From contig NZ_QGHL01000014.1 of assembly GCF_003171715.1 (NCBI RefSeq), forward strand, positions 1 through 64,000: a DNA stretch of 64,000 bases. Direction: 5' to 3'. Positions 25,200 through 64,000 of the stretch are shown here, piece after piece. How positions within the stretch are numbered: the stretch's first letter is position 1; each line of letters opens with the position of its first letter. A program made the translations under genes and the position numbers. The notes under the pieces were generated by a model. The model was not told where the DNA came from and ran no database searches. It saw only the letters and a program-made list of their open reading frames with translations. The stretch is from Novosphingobium meiothermophilum (GTDB lineage Bacteria; Pseudomonadota; Alphaproteobacteria; Sphingomonadales; Sphingomonadaceae).

Positions 25200-26144
25200 T
25201 CAGTCCCCGCCTTCTAGGAAGCGCAGCAGCGCCTGATCGAGCGGATCGACCTGATCGTTGGCGTCGATCTGCGATTCCAGCCAGAGCCGTTCGGCATCGG
25301 TCACGCCGTGGTCCCCGGCGGCTTCGGTGGCAATGTCGCGCATCGGCTGCTTGCGGCCGAAGGTCACTTCGCGCAGGCCTTGCGCAAAGCCGCTGGCGCT
25401 GGTGCTCGCCATGCGCCCGAAGAAGCGTCCGACGTGGCTCGTGCGGTCGTTCATGAAGGCTTCGAGTTCACCCGCGCGTTCGCGCGAAAGGCCCTTCGCG
25501 CCGTTCCAGCCCTGAAGGTAGTTGCCCACCCCCTGCACGAAGAGGCGCTCCCATTCCGGAGCATTGGGCGCGCCCAGCGTGCGGTCCTTGAGGCGGAAGA
25601 GCATTTCGGCCTCGCGCTGGCTGACGCCTGCCGGGCGCTCTCCGCCTGATGCGAAGATGGTGCGCCGGATCAGCGCACATTCGGCTGCGGTTATCACGCC
25701 GGGTTGCAGTTCGCCGCCGCAGCGGGTGGGGCCTTCACCGCTCAGCACTTCGCGTTCAAGCTGTTCAAGCACGAACAGGCGCAGCGCTTCGGGCGCGGAC
25801 AGCGCCTTTTCCAGCACGCGCACCAGCAGTTCCAGTTCGGTCAGGCTTTCCACCTTGCCATCGTGCGATACGCGCTCGATCAGCCAGCGGGCGTTCTCGT
25901 CCGAGACATGGCCGCGCGGCTCGGTGCCGTTGACGGTGAACTCCACCAGCGCCTCAAGGAAGAAATCCGACCATTCGCGCGTGGGTGCGGCAAGCTGGTC
26001 GTTCATGATGAAGATGGCCTCGGCCTCTTCGGGATCGATCTTGCCATCAGGCCACGCCGCGCGGCGCAGCGCAAGGATTTCGTCGGCGGAAATCGTGCCG
26101 TCCCCGGCGGCCTGCGCGGCCAGTGCGCGGAAATGCAAGGTCAT
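25200..26144 (-). CDS. Hypothetical protein with repeated EF-hand/TerB-like units
   Basis: 314 residues, no named family recognised. At least three similar units of about 100 residues can be seen, each with an acidic loop and helix: GDGTISADE near the start, PDGKIDPEEAEAIF, HDGKVESLTELELL, and NDQVDPLDQALLRFL at the end, plus two copies of an ND...W..FF or W..LF element. The loops resemble EF-hand calcium sites or TerB-like metal-binding segments. No signal peptide or membrane segment is seen. It is transcribed alone toward the MpaB-like gene; calcium or metal binding is a guess. Confidence 0.75.
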   Translation of the reverse strand: MTLHFRALAAQAAGDGTISADEILALRRAAWPDGKIDPEEAEAIFIMNDQLAAPTREWSDFFLEALVEFTVNGTEPRGHVSDENARWLIERVSHDGKVESLTELELLVRVLEKALSAPEALRLFVLEQLEREVLSGEGPTRCGGELQPGVITAAECALIRRTIFASGGERPAGVSQREAEMLFRLKDRTLGAPNAPEWERLFVQGVGNYLQGWNGAKGLSRERAGELEAFMNDRTSHVGRFFGRMASTSASGFAQGLREVTFGRKQPMRDIATEAAGDHGVTDAERLWLESQIDANDQVDPLDQALLRFLEGGD

Positions 26145-61254: not shown

Positions 61255-61743
61255 ATGAGCGAATCGATTCCGGCCAGCCGTGATGTGACTTTGTGCGATG
61301 CCCGCGCCGTGGCGCGGGGAATCTGCCGCCTGTTCGCGCGCAACGATATCTGGTGCCTTGCGGAAATGCCGCTGCGTTCGGGAAGGCGCGCCGATATCAT
61401 GGGGATTGATGCCAGGGGGCAGGTGGTGATCGTCGAGATCAAGGTCAGCCGTGCCGATCTGCTCGGCGATGCCAAGTGGACGGACTATCTTGACCATTGC
61501 GACCGGTTCTACTGGGGCCTTGCCCCGCATCTCGATCGTGCGGCGCTGGAAACGGCGGATTTCCTGCCGGATGCCTGCGGGGTGATCGTGGCCGATGGCT
61601 ATGACGCGGAAATCCTGCGGCCTGCGCCGATCTTGCCGCTGGCCGCCGCGCGCCGCAAGGCCGAGGTCGAACGGCTGGCCCGCACTGCCCTGCGCCGCCA
61701 GCTGGTCAGCCTTGATCCGGCCTGCGCCGTCTGGGGCCAGTAA
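61255..61743 (+). CDS. mmcB: MmcB family DNA-repair protein
   Basis: 162 residues. The nuclease-fold signature RADIMGID ... VVIVEIKVSRADL supplies D47, E61 and K63, the PD-(D/E)XK triad. MmcB was described in Caulobacter as an SOS-linked factor in mutagenic repair together with ImuAB and DnaE2. Those genes are not in the window. It is 47 bases after the GDT1-type gene. Confidence 0.87.
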   Translation: MSESIPASRDVTLCDARAVARGICRLFARNDIWCLAEMPLRSGRRADIMGIDARGQVVIVEIKVSRADLLGDAKWTDYLDHCDRFYWGLAPHLDRAALETADFLPDACGVIVADGYDAEILRPAPILPLAAARRKAEVERLARTALRRQLVSLDPACAVWGQ

Positions 61744-62199: not shown

Positions 62200-62323
62200 G
62201 GCTCGCAGAGCTACGCCTGCGGCTGCTACCAAATTGCTAAACACCTGCGCACAGTCGGTCAAAGCGGCGCAGAAAATCGCTGGCAACCACGCCGCAGCGC
62301 TGCTAGGTGCGCCTCTGGCCCTG

Positions 62324-62400
62324 GCACCCGTAGCTCAGCTGGATAGAGCGTTGCCCTCCGAAGGCAGAGGTCACAGGTTCGAATCCTGTCGGGTGCGCCA
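62324..62400 (+). tRNA. tRNA-Arg (anticodon CCG)
   Basis: A complete 77-base cloverleaf with encoded CCA. Acceptor arms GCACCCG and CGGGTGC pair perfectly, the D arm reads GCTCAGCTGGATAGAGC, the T arm contains GGTTCGAATCC, and the anticodon loop CTCCGAA places CCG at the anticodon, so it reads CGG. The island-like sequence begins directly after its CCA, which makes its 3' end a likely integration site. Confidence 0.97.
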
Positions 62401-62429
62401 GATTCTTCAAGTAAAATCAGGGAGTTGGC

Positions 62430-62517
62430 CGTTTGCGCCGACTCGGAAAAATCGGCTCGGTGCACAGTATGTGCACATAACACGGATTTCCGACCCTCCA
62501 GACCGATGGCGCAAACG
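62430..62517. repeat. Nested inverted repeats upstream of the RepC-like gene
   Basis: CGTTTGCGCC (62430-62439) and GGCGCAAACG (62508-62517) form a perfect 10-base inverted repeat. Between them lies a perfect 17-base palindrome, GTGCACA-GTA-TGTGCAC, at 62460-62476. Such layout is typical of replication-control or operator regions. Confidence 0.7.
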
Positions 62518-62637
62518 AAAAACCGCCGGAAGGGCTGGCACCCTTCACAGCGGTCATTTCGATAGCGTAGAGGCTATTCTTCCCATTTACGCGACCCGCG
62601 AATCGGGTGCAAGGGCAAACCTTGCGGGAGGTGCTTC

Positions 62638-63816
62638 ATGAGCATCTCCTTGGCACATAACGGGCTTCCACCCGGCGTCACTCACTTCAGTCTGGCTGAT
62701 CTGATCGAGAAGATCGCGCCAGGGTCCCGCCGCGAGGAACGCCTGTCGGCGACCGCAGTGCGCGTCCTGAAGCACTACCTGCTCGGCTGCCGGTCGTCCG
62801 ACTTTGAGCCTGGCAGGATTTGCGGGGTGTGGGAGCAACCGCAGACCACGGCTCAGACGCTGCGGATCTCGACGAAGGTCCTGCACAATGCCGAAGCCGA
62901 GCTGGAGCGCGGCGGGTTCATTGAGCGGACCCATGTTCCTCATGCACGCCGAACTGGTCAGCGCCGTGACGGCGTCATCGTCAGCCTCGCTGGGATCAGC
63001 CTTCGCCCGCTCATCGATGGCTTTGGCCGGTGGAAAGCCCGGCTAGAGGCGATGGAGCTGCATGAGCGGGCGATGGCTTCACTGCGGCATGAGATTGTCA
63101 TGCTCGGCAGGGAGATCCGCGCGACGCAGGCGGCTTCGTTGATCGAGGAAGCAGAACGGATTCTGCCTCGCGGGCGCGTGTCCCGCATCAGCTCTGCCGA
63201 GAAGCTGGAAGCTTTGAAGGCCATGCTCGAGGCGCTGTTGGTGCAGCCAAAACTTCCCTCTGGTGACACGAAATCTTCCCACCGGACGGAAGAAATCTTC
63301 GCACCCAATATACCTGTCAAAGACTCGTTCAAAAACCGTAAGCGCGCGACCGGTGCTGACCGGTCGGACGAGGTCTCCCCGGCCTTGGCTGCAAGTCTTG
63401 CAAGCGCAGACTATCGAAGCCTCCTGCCATCCGATCGGGCACCGGGCTGGCCAGACATCGTCGATGCATCGGCGATCGCCTGCCGCTGGCACAATGTGTC
63501 GCAGCCGGCCTGGGCAGAGGCCTGCGAAAGGCTGGGTCGCGAGCGCGCGGCCCTCTGCCTCCTCGTCATCGACCGCAATGCGCGATTGCCAAGCGATCAC
63601 CGCTACCGAGCGCGGTCAGGCAGGAAATGCCTAAGCGGGCTGCTGCGGAACGCCTCCAGCCTCTTGCCCATGATCAAGGCTGCCAAGGGCTATCCAGAAG
63701 GGATCTTGCCGGACCTTCAGTTCGAACCGGAGCTGTCAGCCCCCAGAGCCGGCCAGAGCTTTGCGGGTGCATGTCTGTCGGCCTTGGCGAAGCTCTCGGG
63801 GGAGGTGCAGCCATGA
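62638..63816 (+). CDS. repC: RepC-like plasmid replication initiator
   Basis: 392 residues from the ATG at 62638 with a GCGGGAGG site. The N-terminal half (residues 40-125) is a winged-helix region (TAVRVLKHYLLGC, LRISTKVLHNAEAELERGGFIERT), followed by a coiled-coil-prone segment near 130-200 and a C-terminal domain with WAEACERLGRERAALCLLVIDRN and YFRGLLR-like YRARSGRKCLSGLLRNA, which is characteristic of RepC. RepC binds an origin, normally inside its own gene, to start replication of repABC plasmids. RepA and RepB are not upstream here. The stop overlaps the next start (ATGA). Confidence 0.85.
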   Translation: MSISLAHNGLPPGVTHFSLADLIEKIAPGSRREERLSATAVRVLKHYLLGCRSSDFEPGRICGVWEQPQTTAQTLRISTKVLHNAEAELERGGFIERTHVPHARRTGQRRDGVIVSLAGISLRPLIDGFGRWKARLEAMELHERAMASLRHEIVMLGREIRATQAASLIEEAERILPRGRVSRISSAEKLEALKAMLEALLVQPKLPSGDTKSSHRTEEIFAPNIPVKDSFKNRKRATGADRSDEVSPALAASLASADYRSLLPSDRAPGWPDIVDASAIACRWHNVSQPAWAEACERLGRERAALCLLVIDRNARLPSDHRYRARSGRKCLSGLLRNASSLLPMIKAAKGYPEGILPDLQFEPELSAPRAGQSFAGACLSALAKLSGEVQP

Positions 63817-64000
63817 CAGGAACGCGAACCACAAGCCTTTGGGCAGAGCTGGAGGCGGGCAACATCTGGTGGCCGTCCTACAAGCCCGGGCGAGACCCCG
63901 TTTTGAGCTGGCGTCATGCCGCCGCGATCCTGATGCGCGACATTGACCCGCAGCCGATCTTTGCTGCCCTGCCAGCGCTATTCGAGGGGATGTACGATCT
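63813..64000 (+). CDS. Unrecognised protein, cut by the window end
   Basis: 62 residues are visible, starting at an ATG that overlaps the RepC stop. The sequence is tryptophan-rich near the start (SLWAELEAGNIWWPSYKPG) and contains RHAAAILMRDIDPQPIF. I do not recognise the family. Tight overlap with repC suggests a replication- or element-related role. Confidence 0.65.
   Translation, partial: MTGTRTTSLWAELEAGNIWWPSYKPGRDPVLSWRHAAAILMRDIDPQPIFAALPALFEGMYD

Follow-up and report, generated by a model that had tools for sequence, protein, structure and literature searches.

The window, the whole stretch of 64,000 bases analysed here, very probably ends inside a Sphingomonadales IME that sits in the 3' end of tRNA-Arg(CCG) and that would excise, replicate by RepC under antisense control and be mobilized by a helper. 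It corresponds to G000:C3:1-64000, where G000 is the window's own genome and contig C3 ends at 76666; G labels denote genomes (G014 is N. nitrogenifigens), C labels contigs and L labels extracted loci. The element continues beyond the window on C3 and on a second contig, C11. Its excision, replication and transfer are predicted from sequence features.

The sole tRNA found in the window by ARAGORN is an intact tRNA-Arg(CCG) on the plus strand (62324..62400; Rfam score 69 bits), which is the integration target and forms the attL side. An mmcB-like chromosomal gene (61255..61743, plus strand; Pfam MmcB-like, 126 bits) lies 5' of it, and GDT1 and MmcB, both identified upstream by Pfam, adjoin the same tRNA in relatives too. 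The MmcB-tRNA stretch has a match in 61 of 61 genomes (own genome included), with distant genomes matching at the tRNA alone. The original prediction had placed a RepC-encoding element 3' of this tRNA, with core genes stopping at the tRNA and a replication gene less than 240 bases past it. ARAGORN, Rfam and Pfam bear this out: RepC starts 237 bases from the tRNA end, the GDT1/MmcB linkage recurs in relatives, and RepC has no match in 51 of 61 genomes or, in a larger set, in 287 of 296 (own genome among those matching in both sets). The G+C content is 61.3% on the C3 side of the element and 59.1% on the C11 side, against 65.8% in window 1-62323. The 3' end of tRNA-Arg(CCG) also has extra matches of 45-58 bases in at least 11 relatives among the matches listed (e.g. 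11 kb from the tRNA in G004 and 74 kb in G027), several of them on the tRNA's own contig and close to it, which may include partial matches to other tRNAs. This tRNA is likely a general integration hot spot.

The RepC-family replication initiator is a protein of 392 aa (62638..63816, plus strand), in which both N- and C-terminal domains score above the Pfam cut-offs (RP-C 33.0 against 24.4, RP-C_C 34.6 against 32.6). It is a distant RepC, since its score of 44 against NCBIfam RepABC_RepC is far under the equivalog cut-off of 150. The next ORF of the element, of 211 aa and without a family match, overlaps repC by 4 bases on the same strand and runs past the window end (63813..64000). That RepC stands without RepAB, as predicted, is correct for the operon only and does not extend to the element as a whole: a ParA ATPase is encoded 4.8 kb downstream of RepC, and one of two ParB-like proteins in the C11 half carries a plasmid RepB domain. 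On C3, RepC is followed by the 211-aa ORF, a MOBF relaxase with helicase (about 1,000 aa), ParA, RhuM and DUF4238, and then by an M78 peptidase with an HTH neighbour and a multiubiquitin-ThiF-DUF6527 set. In this last set, multiubiquitin, ThiF/DUF6791 and DUF6527 genes stand in a row (L011:12027-13936, equal to G000:C3:74026-75935) as a bacterial ubiquitin-like cargo set, of which PADLOC recognised the ThiF protein only, as a weak match to E1-E2.

A direct repeat of the tRNA 3' end and a tyrosine integrase had been proposed as things to look for beyond the window, and both are present on C11. The att core at 62353..62400 (plus strand) is identical at 46 of 48 bases to G000:C11:176613-176660 (minus strand), and the sequence around the two copies diverges sharply on either side. 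The integrase (C11:178359-179432; Phage_integrase 66 bits) lies 1.7 kb inside the second copy. The order from att is a RelB-like antitoxin, an excisionase-like protein (TIGR01764), a PIN-domain protein and the tyrosine integrase, followed by GmrSD, two methyltransferase-like proteins, a restriction-type helicase, a large serine recombinase and the two ParB-like proteins. The halves (14.3 and 16.6 kb) end at the C3 and C11 contig ends with a gap between them, so the element measures at least 30.8 kb. A single G028 contig (C9:190990-217211) carries both the RepC side and the serine recombinase-GmrSD side, each keeping its gene order, with identities to G000 of 92% for RepC, 89% for TrwC, 94-98% for ParB and 96% for GmrSD. 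Because this near-identical backbone is continuous in G028, the C3 and C11 ends are assigned to one element. The C23 end in G028 matches the sequence beside GmrSD (80% over 143 columns), and the G028 element probably spans from tRNA-Val(CAC) at C23:99713-99787 to a tRNA-Val fragment at C9:190776-190823, with a probable size of about 31.1 kb provided that the C23 and C9 ends abut. No such element was found at the tRNA-Arg site of G028. The large serine recombinase and two ParB-like proteins (L015:14529-18029, equal to G000:C11:188772-192272; ParB 94-98% identical in G028) look like a separate module, possibly a second mobility or partition unit.

Relatives lacking the insertion, another proposed check, were found in G028, G018 and G011. 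KatG, 86-87% identical to that of C11, lies 3.2 kb past the same tRNA in G028 and 4.4 kb past it in G018, and a bile-acid symporter (74%) lies 15 kb past the same tRNA-Arg in G011; no RepC occurs between the tRNA and these flank genes in the three genomes. The symporter alone is weak flank evidence, because its gene also adjoins an unrelated tRNA-Pro element in G006. No perfect empty site was found among the relatives, all of them other species, in which other genes stand between the tRNA and the flank genes. The second att copy, the integrase and the relatives without the insertion together support the predicted integrated element.

Searches for RepC outside chromosomes gave one relative in a plasmid collection of 72,556 records, at 31% identity, and two IMG/VR contigs in viral_contigs (L155 and L156), neither with a tRNA gene. 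Two attP patterns representing the excised junction had zero matches in viral_contigs. L155 and L156 match L092 at 100% identity over 8 kb, and with L090, L092, L100 and L123 they form a RepC subgroup (a supported set in the tree) without a tRNA end or hairpin leader; its members may be plasmids or phage-plasmids.

The association of RepC with tRNA genes is widespread in public genomes. Scanning genome_contigs with an alignment of 10 RepC sequences gave 54 loci, nearly all Sphingomonadales by title with one Hyphomonas MAG, which hold several loci per genome (five RepC matches in N. nitrogenifigens) and near-identical MAG copies. A strict motif of T-arm, acceptor and CCA, sought up to 1.2 kb upstream of RepC, placed a tRNA 3' end no more than 405 bases from RepC in 41 of the 54. 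Such tRNA ends do not lie beside RepC by chance, because the motif matched 42 times in the 63 kb upstream of RepC against 3 times in the 853 kb making up the rest of these loci. Permitting one stem mismatch added three loci (44 of 54), and ten had no tRNA end by RepC even with this looser stem. The CCA end is directed away from RepC, 251-405 bases off, in 41 of the 44, as expected of a displaced fragment. Fragments read by eye were of Val(CAC), Ser, Met(CAT), Glu(TTC) and Pro tRNAs, which with Arg makes six tRNA identities. The window shares its arrangement with L079, L083 and L128: the tRNA-Arg(CCG) is intact and stops 237-238 bases short of the RepC match, reading in the same direction; MmcB is ahead of it in L083 and L128 and was not seen in L079.

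Both att copies lie on one contig in three further elements: G061:C1:120239-153484 (33.2 kb), with the integrase beside tRNA-Val and RepC at the opposite end, G066:C12:101004-135260 (34.2 kb), with the same layout, and G001:C40:5449-34855 (29.4 kb). The G061 cargo comprises a type I restriction set (HsdM, S and R), Fic and a kinase-like protein. Of the G001 genes, only RepC, ParA and a CopG-like gene match the G000 element, and no match to the G000 relaxase or to either the Arg or the Val integrase was found there. This G001 element (L075, L057), in tRNA-Val, carries respiratory nitrate reductase, MoeA and ribonucleotide reductase genes, i.e. nitrate respiration as mobile cargo. In G014, two tandem RepC units (L061; C3:25292-39304) have tRNA-Val ends at 25292 and 39282 and offer a case for incompatibility study. 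No tRNA-Arg fragment was found near the RepC of G014 C7, though this contig does carry an integrase beside tRNA-Arg.

Comparison of these loci indicates that the att-integrase segment is a cassette swapped as a unit between elements, with the replication-mobilization backbone retained. The att arm of the tRNA-Arg class (62401..62513, by blastn) is common to L079 and L083 and, more weakly, L128, and the tRNA-Val class matches the window only from about 62514 onward (blastn). Similarity to L079, L083 and L128 begins at the tRNA, and for most other loci it begins at 62510-62519 (62483 in L088, 62495 in L113). The swap breakpoints fall at about window 62513 and about C11:179990. Among 11 genomes searched, relatives of the G000 integrase were 98% identical in the genomes of L079 and L083, where they adjoin a tRNA-Arg 3' fragment, amounted to a 40% fragment in that of L128 and reached at most 33% in the other eight; the two with 98% relatives are the only other Arg-class genomes with RepC above 89%. 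The G028 integrase has relatives of 89-99% in 8 of 14 genomes and of 61-62% in three more, and an intact tRNA-Val stands alongside this type in 10 of 11 loci (the eleventh, L147, has the 3' end only). BLASTP gave no meaningful relation between the G000 Arg and G028 Val integrases. Both match the PHROG profiles phrog_1 and phrog_216, which makes them distant members of one superfamily. Relatives with a 91-93% identical RepC have a tRNA-Val target, the opposite polarity and an integrase unrelatable by BLASTP. The exchanged cassettes also differ in toxin-antitoxin-like genes: HipA (150 bits) with, by eye, a HipB-like neighbour takes the place in the Val cassette (L068:10500-12199, in G028:C23) that RelB and a PIN-domain gene occupy in the Arg cassette.

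The tRNA target, as mapped on a RepC tree, does not track the replicon. The tree holds 46 of 55 sequences (omitting five that are short or cut, three that are near-identical, and L124, with a long fused frame), and 37 of its 46 rows have a tRNA label, read by eye from fragments unless the tRNA is intact. At least 17 changes of target are needed among the 37 labelled rows, against 17.1 in shuffles, the exact number being unsure on a tree with many weak forks and some long branches; starred branches alone require at least 5 changes for Val and at least 3 for Ser. Since the att-integrase cassette seems to be exchanged wholesale, target choice would be independent of replicon lineage.

The leader of RepC (62514..62637, plus strand) is conserved, as seen by leader comparison and blastn, and holds a candidate antisense (ct) RNA of about 61 nt on the minus strand (62517..62577), with a short hairpin and a terminator-like hairpin with a T run. 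Its candidate promoter, also on the minus strand (62584..62612), has a -35 box TTGCAC (62612-62607), a 17-base spacer and a -10 box TAAATG (62589-62584), and CTTG and TA at these promoter-like boxes are invariant across 33 aligned leaders. The common hairpin of these leaders has the shape of a minus-strand terminator and is accompanied by a smaller one. In the alignment 95.5% of cells are paired, against 29-60% for slid versions of the structure, and double changes occur in 17 cells, where shuffles give 4.2 and none of 500 reaches 17. Pairs changed on both sides, a weaker measure, number 5 against 2.7 (10 of 500 as high), and further pair types, a weak one, 15 against 13.7 (99 of 500 as high). 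The smaller helix has no double change. Two leaders folded singly lie 6.2 and 3.8 standard deviations below shuffles. A consensus promoter/terminator scan of 62300-62800 called nothing, and in Rfam the tRNA alone was above cut-off, with no ctRNA match. The alignment takes in 33 of 55 leaders, and the covariation counts do not cover the other 22. At least 8 of the 55 have no hairpin (L090, L092, L098, L100, L103, L111, L116 and L123), and the other 14 omitted are mostly similar to kept rows or have a degenerate hairpin (L079, L080, L082, L086, L087, L089, L099, L109, L110, L117, L119, L122, L127 and L130). Conservation and covariation make the antisense RNA a candidate in the RepC leader.

A candidate oriV lies within repC itself at 63250..63375, where strong synonymous constraint coincides with the 60-base stretch of repC richest in A+T (53% against 37%). 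In a codon test of 47 RepC sequences (723 pairs under 60% identity), the same codon was used at conserved amino acids in 80-85% of cases at 63250-63330 against 40-44% expected, with a peak at 63268-63312 (0.85 identical codons against 0.43 expected), and the excess stops after 63375. A lesser excess of up to 0.26 is seen at 62665-62745, and the rest of repC ranges from -0.10 to 0.12.

The original prediction also called for conjugation genes beyond the window; this was answered in part, with a MOBF relaxase but no mating-pore or coupling-protein gene. Because the relaxase alone was found, the element is considered mobilizable rather than conjugative: it has att repeats, its own recombinase and a relaxase without a mating pore (VirB4 and TrwB having been searched), as an IME does, and the type IV secretion genes of its own that would mark an ICE were found neither in sister elements nor in G000 as read outside the contig gap. 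It is very unlikely that the element is an ICE with its T4SS genes hidden in the assembly gap, even though the relaxase is of the TraI/TrwC type (NCBIfam MobF 261 bits against a cut-off of 100), a TraD/TrwB-like gene is present on another G000 contig (C14:131597), and in G062, assuming C4 to be the contig of L105, a TrwB follows one RepC at a distance of about 59 kb (the far end of that element is unmapped). VirB4 (PF03135), searched in ten genomes, is absent from G000, G028, G014 and G067, and in the six that have it never falls within an element of known ends. TrwB/TraD (PF10412) occurs in all ten, but never on G000 C3 or C11, nor in the G028 element or the complete G061 and G066 elements. 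Pfam likewise gave no T4SS family among 15 ORFs of the G061 element (14 cargo ORFs and a 268-aa ORF beside the relaxase). An ICE identity was rejected on the absence of VirB4, TrwB and T4SS families from elements with known ends. A co-resident F-type system could, we infer, be the helper for the G000 element. Related MOBF relaxases occur in 102 plasmid records (E up to 1e-50), all less than 60% identical, the best at 54% among the matches listed; in stretches of two such records no product is named RepC, and many ORFs there are unnamed.

Two other explanations concern the unity and the present state of the element. The halves lie on different contigs, and could represent two unrelated insertions, i.e. 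a RepC island at the window tRNA and another integrase island on C11 with a coincidental tRNA fragment. This is extremely improbable, as genes of both halves share one contig in G028 and the genomes of L079 and L083 repeat the pairing of RepC at the tRNA with an integrase at the fragment. The element could instead be a captured RepC plasmid that is now a fixed, decaying chromosomal island with RepC as a relic. The single RepC relative among the plasmid records, the lack of any free form seen and the few genes shared by the G001 and G000 elements would fit such decay, yet repC is open and conserved in 47 sequences with a constraint peak beyond the protein, the Arg integrases are 98% identical in three genomes, and presence is sporadic with many insertion sites. 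We consider a relic improbable, and retain the reading of an IME with a RepC replicon.

Under this IME reading, the integrase and the neighbouring excisionase-like protein would excise the element as a circle, whose replication RepC would start at an origin within its own gene while antisense RNA from the leader would restrain copy number. ParA, perhaps with the ParB proteins, may help to maintain the circle, and the relaxase would let a co-resident conjugation system carry it into a new host. Exchange of att-integrase cassettes between elements would change the tRNA target and leave the backbone unchanged. With a little more confidence than doubt, we propose more broadly that these Sphingomonadales replicons, almost only intrachromosomal, keep full plasmid copy-control under selection, change target by cassette exchange at a fixed seam upstream of the antisense hairpin independently of replicon lineage, and pass regularly through an extrachromosomal phase. 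On that proposal, the conserved control region would imply such a phase.

No published description of a RepC family at tRNA genes was found in the literature searched, which left most subscription journals outside. Features that seem to be new are how broad the family is and how rarely it occurs on plasmids, together with its conserved control region and the swapping of att-integrase cassettes. RepC replicons are known from plasmids, and the present ones seem to be an entire branch that became chromosomal and kept control elements sensible only outside the chromosome. This makes the family a testable case of the blurred boundary between plasmid and genomic island, a clean natural experiment on the swapping of integrases and tRNA targets, and a likely vehicle for sphingomonad defence genes and, in one relative (G001), for nitrate-respiration genes.

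Some known IMEs carry a RepA/RepC pair, which is probably of the IncQ type rather than a repABC-type RepC. Mobilizable islands with plasmid initiators are already known as a kind, and IMEs with replication genes include SGI1 and BcenGI2 (Rep_3), and GISul2, the IncP islands and the tet(O) fragment (RepA and RepC) (PMC5704250). Salmonella genomic island 1 is a mobilized island with plasmid-like replication when its helper is present (PMC7826253); it differs from this element in its IncN2/N3-related RepA (PMC7826253) and in integrating at trmE rather than at tRNA-Arg (PMC8409611). Closer in host is pPDL2 of Sphingobium fuliginis, like this element a sphingomonad mobilizable element with an integrase and an att site at a tRNA 3' end, its attP matching that of tRNA-Ser; it differs in being a plasmid that has RepA as initiator together with a CopG-integrase module, and RepC is not named in its description as far as consulted (PMC3516476).

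In its replication gene the element resembles the repC-family ('solo RepC') replicons of rhizobial and Paracoccus plasmids, such as pRmeGR4a, pSmeLPU88b repC2 (PMC10194956) and pYEE5 (PMC6209633). An antisense RNA of 55-59 nt lies upstream of repC in repABC plasmids, with a similar one in the repC family (PMC10194956). Like the solo-RepC plasmids, the present element has a RepC without a repAB operon, and it may share with them an antisense RNA upstream of repC (PMC10194956; PMC6209633); unlike those plasmid-borne replicons, its RepC is found in elements integrated by tRNA genes, and the plasmid collection has almost none of it. The repABC plasmid p42d, from Rhizobium etli, can replicate with RepC alone and has a ctRNA upstream of repC (PMC3155836). 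The element differs from p42d in having no repA-repB operon upstream, and its ParA lies downstream and belongs to another NCBIfam family. The oriV of p42d is an A+T-rich region at the centre of repC, which is the place of the constraint peak in the repC described here (PMC3155836).
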